Source: Owenia fusiformis (Eukaryota; Annelida; Polychaeta; Sabellida; Oweniidae). Taken from it: DNA of 64,000 nucleotides. A program made the position numbers and the translations under genes. The stretch covers positions 26,481,936 through 26,545,935 of the forward strand of contig CAIIXF020000006.1 of assembly GCA_903813345.2 (NCBI GenBank), written 5' to 3'. Shown one piece after another: positions 36,540 through 62,040 of the stretch. Within the stretch, counting starts at the first letter, position 1; each line of letters starts with the position of its first letter. The notes below the pieces were generated by a model. That model was not told the origin of the DNA and ran no database searches. It worked only from the letters and a program-made list of their open reading frames with translations.

Positions 36540-39500
36540 ATGTATAAAAAAGCGACACTGTGCTATTTACCTGTCATATGTCTCATTGGATCCACGATAA
36601 CCGGAGCAGCAGAAAATGGTAAGCACATTATAACAGGTTTAGAAGATTTTACACCTCGATAGATAGGTTATACAGTCAAGCCAAGTAACTAAGTCAACAT
36701 TCGAAAATAAAAATCTCAAAAATCGTACATCTTTGATTTCCAAAATAATTTGTGAGGTGGTTATTAAGATGATAATACATCTTTTAACGTATTAATTTTG
36801 AGTACATCTTGAATCCATTCTCAACAAAGCGTTGTCGAAATAAGGATTCGAAATATTTGAGTTCGGGATGATAAAAGTACGTTAAGATATACCACTCCTT
36901 AACAAACTCCTTTGGGAACAAGATATAGAATCAAATGCATATTCTTCTTATTTACTCCCTGACACATGCCAACGAATGTTACATAAGTTAATATCTCCGT
37001 TTTAAATAATTTTGTAAACGTTGTTCTCTACAGGTGCCATTTTTTATAATTGAAAAACAAAATTGAACATTTTGCATTTCTAAATTGATAAGTTTCTTGG
37101 AATACAACATAACTGTTAACGATTTAAGCCATTACTGATATTTCCCTTAGTGATCCCATGCTAAATAGACAGTAACTAGGTTATTATTTTGTGTTCAACC
37201 TTGTTTTCATGACTTTTAAACATGAGTCGACAATTATGTAGGAAATTTCAATTCCAAATGTAAGCGTGTCACCTCCTGTTTTTGCACAAAATGTAGCCTT
37301 TTCTTATGATAGATCGCCAAAATCTGCATGTACCTCTCAATGAGGCGACACGTTTTTAAATTTATAGATGCTGAGCTATAAACTCAAACAAAAATTCAAA
37401 CCACCCGCTATTATTTTGATTACACTAGACGAAATTTCAACTCCAGGGGAGCACTGTGGTAACACTTTGAAGGAGGATTCTTGAAAAATCGTTCGAATTT
37501 TCACAAAAGGTTTCACGCAATTTTATTGCTTTGTTTCAGCCTCAACTAAAATCATACTCAAATCCGATACCATAATTATAAGTTTAAGTTTATTCCAATT
37601 TTTTAACATGTTACATATAGTATTCATATACAATCTGACGCAAAGCGTATATTGTAGTTCAAGGATCAAAAGTCAATATTTGTAAATACAATTATTTTAA
37701 TGAAGTGCAGGAATGCAGGAAAAGTGAGATGGTAGAGTCTGCTAGAGTTACATATAAATTAATAAGTTGATATAATATAATGTTTAAGTGCTGCCTTGAA
37801 TTTAACTGTACTGACACTGTGCTTGATTTCATTAGGTAGTTTATTATAATATGATGGTCCAATATATTTAAGTGAGTCCCACCCAAACTTAATGCGGTAT
37901 TTAGGTTGGACTAAAAGGTGTTTAGATCTTGTGTCATGGCCATGTTGGGAAATTTTAAAATAGTCTTTAAAAATGTATACAGGAAAGCCAGATGGTATGT
38001 TTAAGCATCTATATACAAATGTAGCAACATTTAAATGATAAATATCAAAAATTGTCAAAATGTTTTCTCTTTTGAATAAAGGGGCAGTGTGCTCTCTAAA
38101 ATGTGAATTTGTAATTAATCTAATACATTTCTTTTGAATAAGATGTATTGGTGTAAGTATGTTCTTTTTTACATGACCCCAAATAATATTGCAATAGTTA
38201 ATTTGAGAAAGGATTAATGAATGATATACTTTAAGCTTAGAGTCATGATCAAGGATGTCTCTTACTTTATAGAGAATTCCTGTTATTCTTGATATCTTAT
38301 TAGTAATATGCTGAATATGCTTTTTCCAATTTAACTTTTCGTCAATAAATACTCCAAGAAAATTAACACTACTTTCTCTTTTTATTGGCACATTGTCAAT
38401 ATGTATATTTATGTCATGGATTAAATTTCTACCAGGAGTAAAAATTATGAAATTAGTTTTATCTAAGTTAAGAGATAGTTTGTTAGCTTTAAACCATTGA
38501 TTAATTGTTTGCAGTTCTTTGTTTAATAGTCTAACTAGTTCATCCATATTACGATTAGATATAAGTAAATTAGTATCATCTGCATATAATACAAATTTGA
38601 TAAGATTTGAGGTTGAAGTAATATCATTAATATACATTAAAAACAAAGTCGGTCCAAGTATAGATCCTTGAGGTACACCACATTTGATAATATCTTGATT
38701 TGAATAAGTGTTATTGTAGCAAGTGATCTGTTTCCTGTTTTCTAAGTAGGAAGTGAACCAATTTTTTACATTTCCCCTTAACCCATAAAAATCAATTTTT
38801 TCAAGTAGAATTTTGTGATCAACAGTGTCAAATGCCTTAGATAAGTCAAGAAACAGTCCTATGTTAAAGTTATTATCATCGAGAGATGTTCTGAGGTTTT
38901 CAAGAAAAGTTAAAATTGCCATATAAGTTGATTTGTTTGGTAAAAAACCAAACTGACTTGAGCTAAGTATTTTCTGTTTTATAATGAAATCTATAAGTCT
39001 TTTATGCATGAGTTTCTCTAGCACTTTTGAAAAGATGCTAAGAAGAGAAATAGGCCTGTAGTTAGAGAATAAACTAGGTTTTCCTTTTTTGAAAATTGGT
39101 GTAATTTTAGCTGTTTTAAGAATATCTGGGAAAATGCCATTTACAAAAGATAAGTTACACAGGTGACTAAGAAGTGGAGCTAATATATGTTTACAATATT
39201 TTAAAGCACAGGCCTTAAACCCATCTAATCCCGGAGCCCCATCCTTAAGGTTAGAAATTATCAAGGACATTTCATCTGGAGTTATAGGGTTTAAAAACAT
39301 TGAGGTAAGAATGCGACTATTTTCCTTAAGGAACTCATTATGTGAAGTACTACAGGAGATTTTACTTGCAAGCCTAGGACCGATATTTGTAAAATATTTA
39401 TTAAAATTTTCAGCAATTGATTGATTGTCTCTATAAAAAACGCCATCATTTTCAAAGAAATCAGTTGAAGAAGCTTTGGTGTTTTTTCTTTTTAATATTG

Positions 39501-42500
39501 AATCAATGACCTTCCATGTATGCTTTAAATTACCCCTGGCATCATCAATTTGTTGATTAAAATGGGTCTTTTCCGAATTGCGTATCACTGTAGTAAGTGT
39601 GTTTTTATAAGTTTTATACCTTGTTTTATTTTCTTCTGAAGGATTTTTTAAGAAGGCCTTGTATAATGTACCTTTATGCTTAACAGAAGTAAGGATAGCT
39701 GGGGTTAACCATGGTTTATCAGTATTAATTATACATTTTGTTTTAAGTGTTTTAAGTGGAAAAGTGTCATTATATATTCCTTTGAAAATTCCAAGGAAAT
39801 GCTCAAAAGCAGAATTAGTATCCTCAATTGAACAAGTGTTTGACCAATCAATTAAAGCCATCTTGTTTTTAAAAATGTTCAAATTATCAGAATTTATGAC
39901 TCTATAAGTATTGGTTTTTTTAACAAGTGTGTGCAATTGCTTATTTGTAGTAAAAAAGATTGGAAATGGTCAGAGATGTCAGAAATAATGATTCCAGATT
40001 GTTTAATGTTGTCAATTTTGTTGGTGAATATATTGTCAATTAAAGTCGCTGATGTAGATGTGACTCTAGTTGGTTTAAAAATAAGTGGATTAAGACCATG
40101 TGTTGTTATTATGTTTAGAAAACGTTCGGATTGAGTATGATTTTCCAATTTTAAAAGATCAATGTTAAAGTCTCCCATTAAATAAACATCTTTGTTCTCA
40201 CTGGTTAAGTTGGTCATAAAAACTTCAAGAGAGTTATTAAAATCAATCATGTTAATATTTGGAGGTTTATAGCATACTGAGACGATGATATTTCTAGCAT
40301 TATCCTGTGGTAATTCAACTGACAAAATATCACAGTTTGGCATAATAAATGATAAATCAGGTCTCTCAATATACATAGAAGAAGCAGAAACATATAAAGC
40401 CACGCCCCCTCCTCGAACTTCTCTTGATTTAAAAAGGCCAGTATATCCATTAAATGGATAGAAAGTTTCATCTTGCTTAGAGAACCAAGTTTCACTTAAT
40501 GCAATAATTTTGAATTTATGTGACATGAGGGCTAATAAATTATCTAACTTCCAGTTATTTTTTTTCATACTTCTCATGTTAAGATGGATACAAGAGAGGT
40601 TGGGATCATTTGGCGTGTCAGAATTAATATTTTCCAGTGTCTTATAATTACAGTGCTCAACTAATGATGACACGTTATCATTGGTAGGAATATTATTGAA
40701 CTTGTCTTCTTCTTGGGGATCAAAAAGCTTATTTTCAATGTCATAAGTTGTCACATCACCAGGAACTGTATCATAGAATAACACAGGGTTAACTGTAAAA
40801 AATGGCAGCTGATTAAGCAAATATTCATCATCCATTGTCAAAATATTCAAAATATATATCATGAGACTCTGCAGAACTCTTACCTAAACACTCCTGCTTG
40901 TAAAATATGCTCATATTAAAGTTTCAAGATCAGTTGGCTAGGACATTTTAATAAAGATGTCGTACCATTACAAAAAACGAAACAAAAAGTAAATCTCTAG
41001 GGGAATCCCCTTATACAGAATCATGAATTTGCTATGTACATGTACTGCTGTACTTTGACTTGTGAAACTTCATAGAGAAAGTATTTCACTGAGAAAAGGA
41101 AAACAGTCAAATAAAAATCCATTTGCAAACAAGCAATGCATTCAAGAGTTATCTGAAAGCAATGAATATTATGATACTAATTTGCGTGTGCAGATTAACC
41201 TGCATTAGTCATTCACTGAAAAGTTCATGCATCACTTATAAACAACTGGACAAGTATTTGAATGAAGTATTCATATTTTGAATGAAAAATCTACACACGC
41301 TGAGTTTGTAGTACTTGGGTTGCATATGCCTCCAAATCCAATAAGCTATGCATAAGTTGAAGAAATCATTGGTTGCATTTCAAAGGATTAATTCTAAATA
41401 AGGAAAAAAAAATATGAGCCTATATGTACATGTACTCAAATCATTTCTATCATGTGACATACAGTTTGCACACATGACCAGAAGATTGAACTGGGGACAT
41501 GTCATTCCTTTCTCAATTCATGAAAATGTAAAAAAGAAAAGCAATGCACTTTGTATTTGTGTTAATAAATGTACACGAGACTATCATTAATAGAAATTAA
41601 TATATTCACTAATCTCCTGATAAAGTATTAAAATTGTAAATTTGTAGTGAATTTCACTTTCATTGAATCAAATGAAAACATGAAAACAAAACAAAGTAAG
41701 AGTCCAGTCAAACTTAACACAGATGTCTATCATTGATAATTATGGATTGTAAAGAATACCATCAATGTAGAGTCTGTCGTAGACCATCCTGGCCCTTTTG
41801 TTAGATGCCTTTGCTTCCTTCAGTATAGGATAAAGAGCTTTACGGCGCTCTGCAATTTCGGAGGGGAATTGTTCATAAACACTATAGTTTGTACCTTTCA
41901 GACGATGGCAATTTTTGAGAACGATTTCCTTTCCAATGGAGGGACTAAAATGAACAATAACTCCCTGGGGTTTGCCTTGAACTCTACTTCCATGGAGTCT
42001 GTGGGTCCTGTTGATGTTGATCTTAGTCATATCTTCTTGGTTGAGTGAGAGATCATTTTGGAAGAAATTATTGAGTTTCTGTCTTAGCTCATTATTGGTT
42101 TCATTGGTTTCATCAGGTATGCCCTGTATTATGAGATTGTCTCTCATAGATCTACTCCTCAATTGTAGGATTTCTTCATGTTGGCTCTGTATCTGAACTT
42201 GAGTGTCCTGGATCTTTTTCTTCATGTCGGACATTTCCTTGGTCATGTTTACAATTTTCTCATCTTGATCTGAATGTTTCTTAGTGACATCTTCAATCTG
42301 GTCATGAGCGTAACTTAAGGATTTTTCTATTTCAGATACTGATGCTTTAAGTTCGTTGACTTGGCTGCTCGTATTATCTGTTTTCATCATGAGACGCCCA
42401 AACATTTCGAACATCACCAGTCTCCATGCTGATTCAGACATACTTTCAATATCTGAAGGTGCCAACGACTCTAAGTCAATATCAGTTGAGCCTGCCTTCT

Positions 42501-45500
42501 CATTTGGGGTTGGGTTTTTCTTTTTAGAGGCCATGTCACTTGATTTTTCAACATGAGTTTCATAAGCCTCATCAATCCATTTTTCAGTATTTTCATTTGG
42601 TTTTGTTGGAGTAGGTGGAGTTGTTTGTTGATTTGAACTGTGTTTGCGCCTCCTTTTATTGTTTTTATTAGGCATGGCAGATTGGAATAGTTGAGGAACA
42701 ACAAAATGACAGGTCCCAAAACAAAATGTCAGTAGAAAGTCAGTCTCACCTCATTTCAACAGCTTGTTGCTATTTATATATCCAATAAGTTCAATAGTAA
42801 ATTATCCATATGTAATCATTAGGTATTCATAATTGTATATATATCCATATGTTGACATATAACCTCTTGTAAAGTCTAAATAATGTCCTATTAGCTGGAG
42901 CTAAAATTATGCAACCAGCATCATGGCCTGACCTTTGACCTTCTTTGACCTTATAAATTAAAATGAAACATTAAACTCAGGTCAGGTTATATGATAAACC
43001 GTTTCGAGAATTGATGATTTGAGTTAACTGTATATTTAAATAAATGTAAGTCGGCATGTATTCGACAGTTAATGTAGACACATGATGTATGCATCCACGT
43101 GTGACCTAAATATCGATTCATGACTATCATTTTTGGCTTTCAAAAGTTAAGTTGGAAGTTACAGTGGTTGGAGATTAACGAAAACGTCAATCACATCCGA
43201 ATATCCGAACGACGTCAAGTATTAACAATACCCTTTCTGTGCATCTCGAAGAAGGCAAGGTTCTGTGATCCAGCAATTTGCATTCCGAAAGAAAAAATTC
43301 ACAAATGTCAACAAATTTCATTGAGTTGGATATTACATTCGAAATCACAACTTTCGAAATGTTTGTTTTAAACAAGAATTGTAAGAACTTAAAACATGTT
43401 GTTAGTTTTTCAAACCGCATATCCTCATTTACGTTCTTTGACAAGGATGAATTCATTAGAAAACATGGATTTTCTTGATTATTCTTCAAAACTACCCTTG
43501 AACTATAAGTATGTGGGATATTACAGTGTAAATTGACACGCATTTGTTTCCTCCATATCATGAGAAAATAAATGCAGTACCATCTTTCAATATTTGGAAA
43601 CAAAAAGTTCATTCTGTATGTAAACAAGAAAAAATACATTTATGGTTAATTCATAATGAAAAATGACAAATAACATACATCTTTTTAAGTAGGGGTATAC
43701 AGGGACATAGTGGAAATTCAGAAATTTAGGCCATATCCCAAAGACTGCTTCACCAATATGTTACAGAACATCAAATTTATCATTTACACGTTTGCTGATA
43801 GGTTTATTGAAAATAATTACACAGAGGTTTACTTCAATTGTGGCACCATTCTTAGTTAATACTGATGAACATACGAATATCGAATGTTGACTAAGTTACT
43901 TGGCTTGACCGTATATCATATTAAATTTCTCCGTCGCTAAATGTATAGGTTGTGATATGAAAAACATCAAAATAACGAAATAAGTATTATTAGTATGATT
44001 AAATATGTGATTTTATATAAACATATGAAATCAAAATTAAAAAGCTAACGTTTCGATCAAGGCATGACAATATTTCGTCATTGGCGTTTTTCTATTTACA
44101 TTTTGATTCAATTTTCACATTTTCAAATTCCCATGTTGTACCTTATCGTTACTGCGATAAACACAATTAAATGCGAAATAAATGTACAGTATCACGCTAT
44201 ATCTTACAGATTTTGTTCACATCGGATGCTGGAAGGACAACGCAACCAGAACCATGATAGAGCTTGAAGGTACAACAGATGTCCTAGATGGGGCATATTA
44301 CCAAAGAGAGAACGCCATCAATAAATGCTTTACTGCAGCAAGAAACGAAGGACTTGAATACTTTGCTTTGCAGGATAACGGCAAATGTTTTGGAGCACCA
44401 TTTGGTGACACGTCTTATGAAATGTATGGAGAAAGTGAAGCCTGCGACTCGAATGGAATGGGAGGCCAATGGGCAAATGATGTTTATAGAATCACATTGG
44501 GTAAGTACAGAACCAAACATATTCTCATAAACCAGGGCTGATCATATAATGCTTTGGAAGAGCACTGATACACAGGAGATGTTGATCACGAAGATTGCCG
44601 AAGATCGTCCAAGCAACCAATCAAATTCTTTAAAGGGTTATGGTAAGATCTTTGGCCATCTTGCGGTTGTGCTGTTCCGGTCCAAAATCTTTACCCATTT
44701 TTTATTTTTCAGAATTTGTTAACATGGGCTGCTGGAAAGACAGTAGTACAAGGACCATGACGCAGCTTGAAGGCCGTGCAGCTATACTTAATGGATTTTA
44801 TGGCAACAGAGGAGACGCCATTAACAAATGCTTCGTTGCAGCCAGGAATGAAGGGTTTGAATACTTTGGTGTACAGCATAGTGGCCAATGTTTTGGATCA
44901 GCATTTGGTGACACTTCTTATAAAAAGTATGGAGAAAAAGATAATTGTGATTTGAATGGAGAGGGAGGCCATTGGGCGAATAATGTCTATAGAATCATAT
45001 TAGGTAATTAGTGTAAGAAAGTCTAGTTCTTAATGGACATTAGTTTATTACAATGGGATATATATATATATATATCAGATCCTAACATACCAAACAAAAA
45101 TCCAACGATTCCATATTGTCTAAATCTAAAATAACATGAACTCATGTGAAAGTCACAATCAGACTAGGCCTAGTACTAACCCCACGTAAAATTTCAACTT
45201 TGCCATGCCTTCTGTTGAGTCAGTGTATCTAAAAATATAAAAAGAAAGTTTTTCAGAATAATAGTTTGATCCAAATTATTTGTGATCCTGATTTTAATAA
45301 ACTCATAATATGTACAATGTCATATATTGAATTTTCGCAATGCATTAAAAATATAAAAATAAAGTTTTTCAGCATAATAGTTTGATCCCTGATTTCATTA
45401 ACTCACAATATGCACATACATTGAATTATCGTAAATTGAAAAAACACTGTTTTGTTGTGCCACTAAATGAAACAATAAAATAATAAAATAATTTTTATGA

Positions 45501-54723: not shown

Positions 54724-57700
54724 ATGACCCGAGAGGGGGGGGGGGGGGCGGAAGACTCATCCAATAGGCAGAACACAACGGACAAGGACCCACGCAATGA
54801 CAACGGACGACGAGATTCATGTGAAAGTTGCGGAAGAATCTTCAAAAACTGGCATGGCGTAAGAATACATCAAGGTAGCAGGAGCAGGAGCAGGAAGAAG
54901 CAATGAAAGTACCAGTTTTTGAAAGGAAACCAAAACTGAAACTACCAGCAGCATCAAGTTCTGAATGGAAAGACTTGGATGCTGACTTACAGCAGATCCT
55001 CAATAATACTTTGAAAGGGGACGTTAAGAGGAAAGTTGAAGCTATGACATCTATTGTGTATGATGTATGTATGGGCAGGTTTGGACTTGAGGAGAAGGGG
55101 GATGGAATCCTGAAAGAGAAACGGGCCAAGCAGAAGACAGAAAGAAATAGGTAACATCAGGAAAGACTTGCGAGGTTTGAGGAAAGCTTTCTTAAATGCT
55201 GACGTTTCAGAGAAAGAAGGACTCCATCGGTTGAGAGAATCTCTTAGACGCAGGCTGTTACTGCTCAGGAAGGCCGATAACTTGAGAAAAAAGAGGTCTG
55301 AAAAGAGGAAAACCAGGAGCAAGTTTTTCAAGAGTCCATTCCAATTCGTAAGTGATATTTTGGGGAAACCGAAATCTGGAAATCTGGAATGTACAAAGGG
55401 AGAAATGAACACAAGTGTGCAAGCTGCCCATACTGACCCTAGACGTAAAGAGCCATTGGCCGAGAAGCCCAATTTATCACCTGCTCCATTGCCTGAACAT
55501 GAGCTTGATACAACACCAATCAAGCCGTCTGAGGTTCAACAAGTTATAAGAAAAGGCAGATCAGGCTCGGCACCTGGTCCAAGTGGGCTTACCTACAAGA
55601 TATATAAGAACTGTCCACTATTGACCACAAGACTTTGGAGACTCATGCAAGTCCTCTGGATTAAGAAAAACTCCCTGCTCCTTGGCTCATAGCAGAGGGC
55701 TGCTTTGTCCCAAAGGAGGAGAACTCCATCTCACTTGACCAATTTAGAGAAATCTCCCTACTTAGTGTTGAAGGCAAGATATTTTGGGCTGTGATTGCCA
55801 AACGGTTTACAACCTTTTTCATGGAAAACAAGTATGTTGACACCTCTATCCAGAAAGGAGGAATAACAGGCTTTGCTTGGTGTGTCGAACATACAGCAGC
55901 TATATCCAAACTGATTGGGGAGGCCAAGAAGGAGAAGAAGGATCTTTCAGTGGTATGGCTTGACCTCGCAAAAGCTTATCCAAGCGTGCCTCATCAACTT
56001 ATCTACACTGCCCTGGAACATTACCATGTGCCACCTGAGGTAATAGGACTTGTCAAATTACATCTTGGCGGACTATACATGCGCTTTTCCACAAGACATA
56101 TCACTTCGGACTGGCAGCGACTAGAGAAAGGCATCATGACTGGATGCTCAGTATCAGTGATTCTTTTTGTAGCAGCCATGAACATTCTACTGACTGATGC
56201 AGCAAAAGAATGTAGGGGGCCACTCGCATCTGATGGAACACCACGGTGTTATAGCATGACAGTTACGACAAGGCGATTTGCAAAATTTTGCGGTAACGAT
56301 AACAAAAAATGGCGGATTGTAAAGACAACATGTCCTCTTTCTCGCCTGTAGGCAAGATTCACAGATACGATTTCCTTTTTAACTAGTTCCATTCGGTGAC
56401 GTATATATGGATGGTTATAAAGACTGGGTCAAATCTGCCAGGTGGTTTACTAGAAGCGGAATATAAGGTGTAAACTTACCGACTGAGATGTCCAAGTTCA
56501 TATTTTTTAGTGATTTCTCAGCATATGTGCCTCAAAGCCTCTCAACTTATTAACAGTAAGTAAACTGTGTATAAACAAGCCATAAAATGACAAATCCAGA
56601 ACAGGAACGTGGTCATAATGTAAATAATAAGGTTTCAAACGCAATGTCGTTAGACGAGTACGTATGATGAATTCTATGGACTGTAACGTATTGTATTAGA
56701 TGTACATTAGATATTTAGCGGACGGTTACGTGCATCACATCTTTCAAGTTAATGTTGCTAGTTCTGATAGCCTCTTTCCATGTAATTGTTATAATGGGTA
56801 AGAAATGGAATATTGAATTGCTTATATTTGTTTTCACGACTCGAAAGAGACGCTCTTGTTTGAGCCTCTATAGGGCAAGGAAAAAATTGTGTCTTGCTTT
56901 ATTAATGAAACCAATTTAAGTCAAATAGATAGCAATGAAGAGGCAAAAGAAGAATTAGCGTCATGTATTGATGAATATGACAAAATTGATAACAATGCAT
57001 CTGGGATACATATTTGAAAGAGGTTCGCGTAACCGTCAATCATTTTTTGGCGTAACCGCAAATTAAAAAATACAATACTATGGCTTAAGTAGAACATATT
57101 AGGTGATTTCCAATGCTCAATTGGCTTTTTATGATCGTTTGTAGGTTACATCTATATACCCCGAGGTCGTTAGGCAATGTAGACCATGCCCTAACGACAA
57201 AAATAAACAATTACTAAATTTTGTGTAGTTTTGAATTTCAAACTCAACAGTTTTTCGCTTATTTCTTTTTATCCCCGGGCATCAATTTGCAAAGAATACG
57301 TTCAAAATATACATTACTAAATGTATCACCGAATGCGATGTCTACAAAAATCGTTCATCCTTTCATTGATACACAGTAGAAGAAAATACTGCACCAACCT
57401 TAGTTTTCTGTTCCATCGCAGCCATTTTATTGGATAAATCAGTGATCGTACTCGTCTAATCTCGTTTTCAGAGGTGTCGTAACTGTCATGCTATAACACC
57501 GTGAACACGCCACCCCCCTTGCAGAGCGTTCATGGACGACATAACAGCAATGACATGCAAGGAAATTGGGATGAGATGGATTCTGTCTCGACTTGAACAA
57601 CTGGCTACATGGGGCAGATTAACTTTCAAATCCAAGAAATCCAGAAGCCTCATCCTCAAGAAAGGCGTAATATCAAACAACAAGTTTACAATGCAAGACG

Positions 57701-59205
57701 ATACGATTCCGACCATCAGTGAGAAGCTTTTAAATGCCTTGGAAAATGGTTTGACCACAGTCTCAATGACAAGACCCACACAGCAGATACGCTTCATCAG
57801 CTAACTACCTGGACGAAAGCAGTAGATAGGACACCACTTCCTGGGAAGCTTAAGATCTGGTGCTTCCAGTATGGAATTATTCCTAGGTTGAATTGGCCAT
57901 TCACCATGTATGACTTCTCCATAACTTCGGTGCAGGCCATGGAAAGGATAGCTTGCAAGTTCCTTCGCAAATGGTTAGGGGTTCCTAAATCTTTCAGCTC
58001 TGTCAACCTCTACAGCACTTCATCTCCAGCTGCACTTCCTTCTTCCTCCATAGTTGAAGAATTCAAAGTAACGAAAGTGCGAACAGCAATGTTGCTCAGA
58101 GACTCGAAAGATCCAACAGCCAGGGCATCTGAAGCCAAACCTCCGGAAAGAAGGAAATGGTCTACTCAGGATGCTATCAGCAATGCTGAAAGCAGACTGA
58201 GACAGAGTGACATCGTAGGTACTGTTGCAGAGGGGCGGAAAGGGCTCGGGAGTTACGGCAGGGTCCCTTGGTCTAAGGCAGATCCAAAGGCAAAAAGGAA
58301 GATGGTAACGAGTGAAATAAGGAAAACTGAGGAGGAAGCTAGACTAGTTAAAGCAACTGGAATGGGCAGTCAGGGTGCATGGCTGAGTTGGGAATCTGTA
58401 GAGAGCAGAAAGGTGACAGGGAGTGATCTTATGCAGACAGCGGAAACATCACTTGCTTTCTTCCTTAAATCCTTAAGCAACACCCTTCCCACACCAACTA
58501 ATCTGTCACTCTGGGGCTTGACGGACGATCCAACCTGCTCCCTTTGTAAAGACCAACCAGCTTCTCTAAGGCATATACTGAGCTCCTGGTAGAGTAGCCC
58601 TAGGAGAGCATCGGTATACTTGGAGACAGGACCAAGTTCTTAGAGAAGTAGCCAGGCAAATTGACATCATAATTGCTTCCAAAACTTGCCCACTAGCTAA
58701 AGATACAACACCATGGATATCATTCTGTAAAGAAGGTCAGAGCAAAGCACCCCAACAGCAGAGAACTACCATGCTCCAAGGAATCCTCCAAACAACAACA
58801 GACTGGGAAATCATGGTCGATTTGGACAGGAAGTTGGTGTTTCCACAAGATATAGCTATTACGACACTAAGACCAGACATTGTCAGATCAAATGACAAAA
58901 GGTGTGTTATCTTGGTCGAGCTGACTGTTCCATGGGAGGATAGAATTGAGGTTTCCCATGAGTTGAAACAAACAAAATATGATGACATTATCACAGAAGC
59001 AAGACAGAAGGACTGGAAAGCCCACAGCTTCCATATTGAAGTAGGATGCAGGGGTTTTGCTGGAAAGTCAGTGACTTGGATGCTGAAGTCCCTTGGAATG
59101 CCATCTACCAAGCGGAAGCGAGCAAGTATGCAGATTGCAACAGTAGCGGAGAGATGCTCCAGATGGATATGGTTGCGAAGCAGTGCTGCATGGTTGCCCC
59201 ATTAA
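54724..59205 (+). pseudogene. R2-type polyprotein pseudogene (ZF-RT-CCHC-REL)
   Basis: Pieces by frame: 54724-54906 with the C2H2 finger CESCGRIFKNWHGVRIHQ; 54903-55154; 55168-55692 with a basic linker and GRSGSAPGPSGLTYKIYK (RT motif 0/1); 55690-56241 with VVWLDLAKAYPSVPH (motif A) and KGIMTGCSVSVILF. After the inserted element come 57509-57750 with RAFMDDITAM (catalytic F-DD motif), about 57750-58592 with the thumb and CSLCKDQPASLRHIL (CCHC knuckle), and 58592-59205 with RPDIVRSNDKRCVILVELTVPWE (PD-(D/E)XK nuclease). At least five frame changes separate the pieces. All key catalytic motifs survive, so decay is recent or partly sequencing error. Confidence 0.8.
56242..57503. mobile_element. 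Transib-like non-autonomous element inserted in the RT
   Basis: The ends start CACGGTGTTATAGCATGACA and continue TTACGACA after one further base, giving 29 bp perfect inverted repeats (56242-56270 and 57475-57503). AACAC occurs immediately outside both ends (56237-56241 and 57504-57508), a 5 bp target duplication. CACGGTG-type termini with 5 bp duplications are characteristic of Transib, the superfamily related to RAG1. Removing the element and one AACAC leaves the RT frame continuous from SDGT into the FMDD motif. No transposase is encoded. Confidence 0.75.
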
Positions 59206-59949: not shown

Positions 59950-62040
59950 TTAATTGCTACCACTTTCTTTTTTCTTTTTCCGACTTTTAAACAGCCCATC
60001 TTTGAAACCATCATACCATTTCAATGGTTTTCCTAAGAGGCCCCTATACCTTTTTGCAAGAGCTTCTCGCTTGTTTTCCCTCCGGATAAATTCGTCCAAG
60101 ACTTTTTGGCGAGTAGCAAATGGATCATGGCCGTCTTTGAACATCCTGGCCCACTCTTCCGCTCGACTTCTTATCGCTATCAATTCTCGGATGCGTTTAG
60201 CATATCCCGGCATTTGATCCTTTTCCTCAGCAGCTATCATGGTATCAATATATTCTGTTTGTGAAATCGGATTCGGCTTGAGGGCGATGTCATTTAATTG
60301 TTGTATGGTCTGTCTGTTTAGGTCAATCAACATCAATGTATTATCTCGAACGTCATCAAACTCTCGTTTGAGATTTTGAGTAAGACCTATTGTTGACAAT
60401 TGGGCTGTCATACTTTTGTCATACCGGGACTTCAAATTATAGTGTGTCCTTGATTCTACTTGTTTTACAAGTTCCATGACAAAGGGCATATCTCTATGTT
60501 CGCCGTGTGTGCATTGATCGTCACACACGGTACAATTTCCATCAGAATCCATGCATAGACAATCTTTTTTGCCATCTTTCTCGCCAAGCGTACAATTGGC
60601 ATGACAAGTAACTTCGCATGTTAAGCAGTATGTCGTGTGTGCCCGTTTGTTAATAGGACGCCTAACTGATTTTTGTATTTCGACTGTATACTGAAAATTA
60701 CTGCTATCCTTTATTTCTTTTTCGTGTTTGTCTACAACTTTCATTTCTTCTTCTAGCTCGTCCAGTTTACTTAAACCTTGCCTGACAGCATTCTGTAGTC
60801 GACTTACATTCATCTCTAGCTGTTGTCGAAGTCTGAGAACAGATTTAGTCAATGAAAGGCTCTTTGGGGTACATTGAGCGAGTGCTTCAAAGAATTGCTG
60901 AAAACTGTCTTCTCCCATGATCCAGAAAAGATGTTCCATCATGTCGGTTTGCATTTCTTTTTCTTTGAATATCGCTGAATTATTGAACTTAAAGTGCTTT
61001 TTAAATGTTAATCCTGCAGCACCTAGTCCAGTCAAAACCTGGGGCTCCCTGGCGTCAGCAAACGTTAGAAGCATTAGAATATTATCTTCAATATCCTTTC
61101 CGAATATGGATAGAATACTGTCAAATATATATTGCTGTGTAGGTGTCAATCTGGGCAACGAAGACTGGGCTACAAATCCAACTGCATCAATGGAGCTTAT
61201 ACCTAATTCTTCTGACGATTCAAAACACGATTTTATTTGCTTTGTTATTTTTTCATCGGCAGCTATACCACTCGTGTCACCGAAGCCAGGCGTATCGATA
61301 ATTGTAAATGTTGTATCGGGAATTTTCATTCCTTTTATACTATGTATTGTGTATGCCGTCACACACTTTGTTTGACTGACCGACTGGTCGACATTTAGCT
61401 CTTCATCTATAAGTCGCAACCTTGCGTCGCAGTCTCTACTTACTCCAAACAGATAATTGATCATTACATTAATGAAGGTACTTTTTCCTGAACCAGTTGC
61501 CCCAACAAGCATAATGACAATTTCTTTTGCATGCATATTCAATTCTCCATATTCGTATTTCCTAATCCCCATTGCAATATTTTCATACTTTAATTCTAAA
61601 TCCATCTGATAAACAGACAAATTTGCTAACTTTTTAACTCGCTTCCCCTTGGCTCTATCAAGTATGGAATACCTCAAATTCTCAGGTGGAGCAAGTCCCT
61701 CTGTATCTATTTCAAACATTTCGCTAACGTCACTCTTTACACTCGACTCACCATTGAGATATGTCGCCTTTACAGTGAAAACATATGTACAATTCGTTTT
61801 CAACATTATGTTGGTTTTAACTTCTCCGATGACATTATCCCCAGGAGCCGAAATGTGTTTCTCCTTCCATTCATTTTCCCCCAAAGCTTGGTAAAATATC
61901 GTGAATGAATCCACGGGATTTTCAAATGTACATGCTGGTACGCGAAACGAAATTGAGGCGAGATTTCTAAGCCGATTTTTCTCTTCCATCCATAACTTGG
62001 GCTTCCCGGGACATGGCAAATGTGAATGAGCCATATTCAT
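59950..62040 (-). CDS. Fn3-P-loop GTPase (AIG1/septin-like) with Cys-rich module
   Basis: Intact 696-residue single-exon frame. Residues 28-112 form an Fn3-like beta domain (TYVFTVKATYLNGES). The GTPase domain follows, with G1 GATGSGKS (180-187), a TKCVTAYT-type G2 (about 224-231), G3 DTPGF (249-253) and a likely G4 TFAD (326-329) in the TRAFAC septin/AIG1-like group. Residues 395-445 are coiled coil. A compact Cys/His cluster at 472-515 (YCLTCEVTCHANC, CLCMDSDGNCTVC, HGEH) suggests metal binding. The C-terminus is helical and ends RKKKKESGSN. Such proteins are lineage-expanded in aquatic animals, with function mostly unknown; an immune or membrane-remodelling role by analogy to GIMAPs is inference. 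There is no signal peptide, so it is probably cytosolic. The ATG at 62040 may follow a 5' UTR splice acceptor (GAGTTCAG). Confidence 0.88.
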   Translation of the reverse strand: MNMAHSHLPCPGKPKLWMEEKNRLRNLASISFRVPACTFENPVDSFTIFYQALGENEWKEKHISAPGDNVIGEVKTNIMLKTNCTYVFTVKATYLNGESSVKSDVSEMFEIDTEGLAPPENLRYSILDRAKGKRVKKLANLSVYQMDLELKYENIAMGIRKYEYGELNMHAKEIVIMLVGATGSGKSTFINVMINYLFGVSRDCDARLRLIDEELNVDQSVSQTKCVTAYTIHSIKGMKIPDTTFTIIDTPGFGDTSGIAADEKITKQIKSCFESSEELGISSIDAVGFVAQSSLPRLTPTQQYIFDSILSIFGKDIEDNILMLLTFADAREPQVLTGLGAAGLTFKKHFKFNNSAIFKEKEMQTDMMEHLFWIMGEDSFQQFFEALAQCTPKSLSLTKSVLRLRQQLEMNVSRLQNAVRQGLSKLDELEEEMKVVDKHEKEIKDSSNFQYTVEIQKSVRRPINKRAHTTYCLTCEVTCHANCTLGEKDGKKDCLCMDSDGNCTVCDDQCTHGEHRDMPFVMELVKQVESRTHYNLKSRYDKSMTAQLSTIGLTQNLKREFDDVRDNTLMLIDLNRQTIQQLNDIALKPNPISQTEYIDTMIAAEEKDQMPGYAKRIRELIAIRSRAEEWARMFKDGHDPFATRQKVLDEFIRRENKREALAKRYRGLLGKPLKWYDGFKDGLFKSRKKKKESGSN

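Follow-up and report, generated by a model that had tools for sequence, protein, structure and literature searches.

The window, a stretch of 64,000 nucleotides of Owenia fusiformis DNA, contains a non-autonomous cut-and-paste transposon that makes 5-bp target site duplications and interrupts a copy of an R2-like reverse transcriptase (RT) element (Table 1). The assignment to this class follows from the terminal inverted repeats (TIRs), the 5-bp duplications and the large non-coding family of which the element is a member. A transposase supplied in trans would bind the 29-bp TIRs and excise the element at its CAC...GTG ends. The element would then be joined to the target with a 5-bp stagger, and gap repair would give rise to the AACAC duplication, leaving the RT copy split in two. 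The autonomous partner may be lost, rare or too divergent to be seen. Taken by itself, this DNA-level mechanism (cut-and-paste, an enzyme acting in trans and a 5-bp stagger) is almost certain. The whole reading, in which the enzyme is in addition of the Transib/RAG1-like type, has a probability of about 0.55. A source of this type is the most likely one because, among the groups that we know or have read about, only the Transib/RAG1-like group combines CAC...GTG ends with 5-bp duplications. The probability is not set higher because the enzyme is missing and the targets are AT-rich. The element is best filed as belonging to a family of non-autonomous TIR transposons with Transib-type ends, the superfamily being not proven.

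The preliminary description of this DNA had reported perfect TIRs beginning with CACGGTG and a duplication of AACAC. The TIRs, their length and the boundaries of the element are exact, and AACAC is present on both flanks. The two TIR arms are separated by 1204 nt and are the sole matches to the TIR in the window at up to three mismatches, where 0 are expected (100 shuffles). Transib ends can read CACGGTG; a search of the literature found no paper containing both "Transib" and "CACGGTG". The TIR core GACGGTTACG occurs twice inside the element in opposite orientation, at about 56721-56730 and 57028-57037 (element positions 480 and 796). The sequence GGTTACG is present there a third time, the average for shuffled interiors being 0.07. 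These internal repeats are possibly enzyme-binding sites or relic ends.

Table 1. The transposon, its insertion site and the interrupted RT element (positions in the window)
Feature	Position	Strand	Remarks
R2-like reverse-transcriptase frame, part left of the insertion	55665-56241	+	RVT_1, E=3.8e-13; best solved-structure match is an R2 retrotransposon protein, E=5.3e-12
AACAC, left copy of the 5-bp target site duplication	56237-56241		single AACAC in paralogues L107-L111
Non-autonomous TIR DNA transposon	56242-57503	+	1262 bp; no coding capacity found; 97-98% identical copies elsewhere
Left TIR, 29 bp, CACGGTG end	56242-56270	+	perfect inverted repeat
Right TIR, 29 bp	57475-57503	-	100% complementary to left TIR
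AACAC, right copy of the 5-bp target site duplication	57504-57508		single AACAC in paralogues L107-L111
Same RT element continued right of the insertion	57504-59205	+	several frames, decayed; right flank matches L107-L110 over about 1.5 kb

The 188 amino acids preceding the insertion match RVT_1 and have their best matches to solved structures in R2 retrotransposon proteins, so that the label "R2-type" is fair. The zf-RVT match on the right side is weak (E=3e-4, under the curated cut-off). When 60 bases of the left flank and 120 bases of the right flank are joined with one AACAC, a single open frame runs across the junction into RAFMDD. An uninterrupted RT frame into the FMDD motif had been claimed earlier, and this is correct across the junction. 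It does not extend to the whole gene: several indels, four of them of a single base, set the window copy apart from all four long paralogues (L107-L110), and the open frame of this decayed copy is therefore local to the insertion. The long alignments of the window copy with the same four paralogues, on both sides of the insertion, are 97.4-98.5% identical.

When the genome was searched with the 292 bases to the left of the insertion, 17 places were found, and six loci were cut out: L106, which is the window's own, and the paralogues L107-L111. Each of these five paralogues has matches to the left and right flanks that overlap by exactly 5 bp, and an uninterrupted site with a single AACAC. The element therefore inserted into one copy of an RT family and is missing from the other members. 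This is in agreement with the earlier proposal that the insertion is younger than the R2-type copy, the empty site being retained in each of the fetched paralogues. The copies in L107-L110 are situated on four chromosomes and are mutually 99.1-99.9% identical over 2.9-3.3 kb. Such near-identity is a sign that the R2-like element has been active recently.

The family was surveyed with a TIR pattern that allowed A or G at position 20. At up to three mismatches this pattern has 834 matches in the genome, and its reversed control has none. With the whole element as a DNA query there were 784 first-look candidates, and 40 of these were scored. Upon comparison with a consensus built on 45 copies, 48 of 53 near-full-length copies were found to differ from it by 1.9-3.9%, the range over all being 1.3-8.1%. 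The window copy is part of a young group (L001-L005), the members of which differ pairwise by 1.8-2.2%. The heptamer CACGGTG is found at 151 of the 169 family ends read, and both shorter and longer derivatives of the family exist. An unusual base follows the exact TIR in seven cases, and these too proved to be family members (five were fetched, and two lie in L019 and L046). A search for families that have just the first 12 bases of the TIR in common with this one found one place, compared with nine for the reversed control.

The family consensus is 1270 bp long, has a G+C content of 36.6% and has no open reading frame (ORF) longer than 95 aa. Six ORFs of the consensus scanned against Pfam gave no relevant match, and tblastn with Transib and RAG1 queries detected no coding remnants of these genes inside the element. 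The view that the window copy is non-autonomous is supported by this lack of coding capacity.

The preliminary description had called for the TIR to be searched for elsewhere and the 5-bp flanks of other copies to be read. In a set of fetched loci, 66 elements had both ends readable, and these collapse to 54 independent sites, a sample biased towards copies whose TIRs are well kept. The 5-bp duplication is exact at 43 of the 54 sites; with one mismatch permitted, the number is 51. From base composition alone, arithmetic gives a chance expectation of about 0.07 exact 5-bp duplications in 54 sites. Exact duplications of 4 bp and 6 bp are seen at 0 and 1 sites, respectively, and at 10 sites any exact duplication is at most 2 bp long. 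A length of 5 bp is the rule, and the other lengths that were expected to contradict the Transib reading do not prevail. The 54 sites record the cutting geometry and target choice of one transposase that is not itself visible in the genome.

The 43 exact sites have a target preference of C|ATNAT|G, which spans 7 bp with little information beyond it; the motif was read on both strands and is hence symmetric by construction. The duplications are 84% A+T (181 of 215 letters), compared with 62% in the nearby flanks (p ~5e-13). CANTG occurs at none of the 43 sites.

These features can be compared with those of known systems. Transib and RAG-like transposons are described in PMC7204232 and PMC4411706 as having a CAC start, heptamer-like ends and 5-bp duplications. 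The family resembles Transib (HzTransib, Drosophila hopper and transib2) and its non-autonomous derivatives in having CAC heptamer-like ends, symmetric TIRs and 5-bp duplications, and its 7-bp target motif has an outer C and G as that of hopper does. The inner target bases are different, being ATNAT rather than CANTG or a GC-biased sequence, and no Transib transposase was found here. Drosophila hopper and transib2 prefer CCANTGG targets, according to PMC3276498. The RAG-like transposons (ProtoRAG and RAGL) also have the CAC start and the 5-bp duplications. Unlike them, the family has AT-rich duplications, and no RAG1 match was found in its genome; PMC8289069 gives the duplications of ProtoRAG, Transib and vertebrate RAG as G/C-biased. 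Past the heptamer, the family TIR does not resemble the RAGL consensus CACTWMCAAACKTYKBB given in PMC7204232. A GC-biased target choice, which is reported for Transib/RAG without being strictly defining, is thus absent from the family. The AT-rich targets disfavour a standard Transib enzyme, without excluding one. A Transib/RAG-like source would mean that this branch is able to choose AT-rich targets.

The Transib/RAG reading of the preliminary description consequently stands in part. The CAC...GTG ends and the 5-bp duplications fit it best; no enzyme was found, and the targets are AT-rich. The accompanying statement that a Transib/RAG-like transposase had been active in this lineage is not demonstrated: the targets differ, and no credible Transib/RAG1 coding match was found in the genome. 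Pfam RAG1 gives nothing in the genome at E<=1, and the control genomes are likewise without any match. A 308-aa Transib-like query, itself a match to the solved HzTransib chain (2e-100), has a sole match at C12:25983695 with E=1.15, which is noise. An HzTransib segment and a 51-aa Transib motif, searched against the genome with no positive control, gave no match. Two further motifs were back-translated. The NDGNTARRFF-like pattern has one match, in L054, which is an isolated 10-mer between stops. The VHKxLIHG pattern has 18 matches, compared with 17 for its control, and 11 of the 18 are a repeated 23-mer encoding VHQLLIHG. In the four of these 11 places that were fetched (L112, L113, L114 and L115), the 23-mer belongs to a 29-aa frame of an unrelated repeat, which is at least 5.7 kb long and about 99% identical among them.

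As the genome searches for Transib/RAG1 had no positive control, the absence of such a gene is not proven by them. The hAT dimer domain is found 147 times, showing that searches of this kind do work in this genome. That no autonomous Transib was seen is unsurprising, because a genome typically has one or a few autonomous Transib copies (PMC4411706).

The autonomous partner was also looked for at the ends of the family itself. A full element having these ends together with a Transib/RAG1-like core, as envisaged in the preliminary description, is not found at the 100 exact-TIR ends listed (of the 834 matches at up to three mismatches), all of which are within fetched loci. These ends lead to family members, to truncated or rearranged copies, or to copies split by other DNA. 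A set of 66 loci contains 44 ORFs of at least 100 aa, 30 of which were scanned against Pfam, those left out being mainly ORFs of the family sequence and some overlapping frames. None of the 30 scanned ORFs in the loci of the 100 listed ends encodes a transposase of the family's own. At several ends, for example in L062, L063/L098, L065/L120, L072/L121 and L077/L122, the sequence read stops short of the element's far end, and a partner may therefore lie there.

The only transposase among the 30 scanned ORFs is of the mariner type and is inserted in a family copy in L117. It is situated at L117:583-1852, is composed of Mos1 HTH and DDE_3 pieces, and is nested in such a way that the family matches overlap by 3 bp at the break. 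The other matches among the scanned ORFs are to RT or RT-like pieces, FAD-binding and CUB, and weakly to TSP1.

Of the other possible sources of the enzyme, another or undescribed lineage with CA..TG ends (CMCT-like) has the highest probability, though it is unlikely. It would make 5-bp duplications at AT-rich targets and would go unrecognised by Transib/RAG1 queries. The ends and the duplication length fit, the Transib queries are silent and the targets are unlike those of Transib. The CMCT lineages mostly have CA..TG ends and duplications of 2 to 5 bp, as stated in PMC12730594, where EnSpm families with CAC..GTG ends are given 3-bp duplications, which counts against this source, as does the failure to find a candidate protein. 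A narrower form is doubtful: a divergent CA..TG-ended lineage close to Transib/RAG, with 5-bp duplications and C|ATNAT|G targets, may have left no recognisable coding copy. In that case, GC-biased targeting would not be a fixed property of the RAG1-like branch.

A transposase of the hAT5 type appears rather improbable as the source. The AT-rich motif would be explained by a hAT target rule, NTNNNNAN, if this is shortened to NTNAN, a step taken by analogy and not a published hAT5 rule. NTNAN is found at 15 of the 43 exact sites as against 4.1 expected (p ~5e-6, uncorrected for the several motifs looked at), and hAT domains are abundant in the genome. The usual hAT ends start with CAGNG, those of the family with CACGG. 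The scanned ORFs revealed no hAT gene within a family element, and the one nearby hAT domain (C11:8463783-8463917, noticed by eye) lies beyond the TIR, some 0.5 kb away from the element in L043. According to PMC12730594, hAT5, a group of the hAT transposons, makes 5-bp duplications, and the rule itself is the earlier published target motif of hobo, as given in PMC3276498. Were hAT5 the source, CAC ends and 5-bp duplications would be insufficient to call an element Transib, and caution would be needed in annotation.

Several other superfamilies do not agree with the family. Chapaev makes 4-bp duplications and piggyBac duplicates TTAA, and both are rejected on these features. Ginger2/Tdd needs TGTNR ends (PMC2836005), where the family has CACGG, and EnSpm is rejected for its 3-bp duplications (PMC12730594) against 5 bp here.

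Three sets of fetched family copies, of 7, 3 and 2 members, have identical flanks. The largest consists of L009, L011, L014, L015, L030, L031 and L032, and in this set the element was therefore carried along by a larger repeat, which became dispersed once the insertion had taken place. The idea that all copies are mere pieces of larger repeats spread in some other way, with accidental ends and duplications, finds support in these sets and has practically no chance of being right, as it is refuted by the 5-bp rule over 54 independent sites and the natural empty sites, along with the 834 TIR matches against 0. Apart from the question of its source, the family is an ordinary one of non-autonomous transposons.

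Two other features of the window may be described. A non-LTR retrotransposon with long frames occupies 37759-40883 and 41740-42750 on the minus strand. Its RT frame is 736 aa long (RVT_1, E=5e-38) and its endonuclease frame 329 aa; an upstream frame of 336 aa has, by eye, the look of a coiled coil. Adjoining the interrupted RT element, a 696-aa frame at 59950-62040, also on the minus strand, contains an AIG1-type (GIMAP-like) P-loop GTPase domain (E=2.5e-11).
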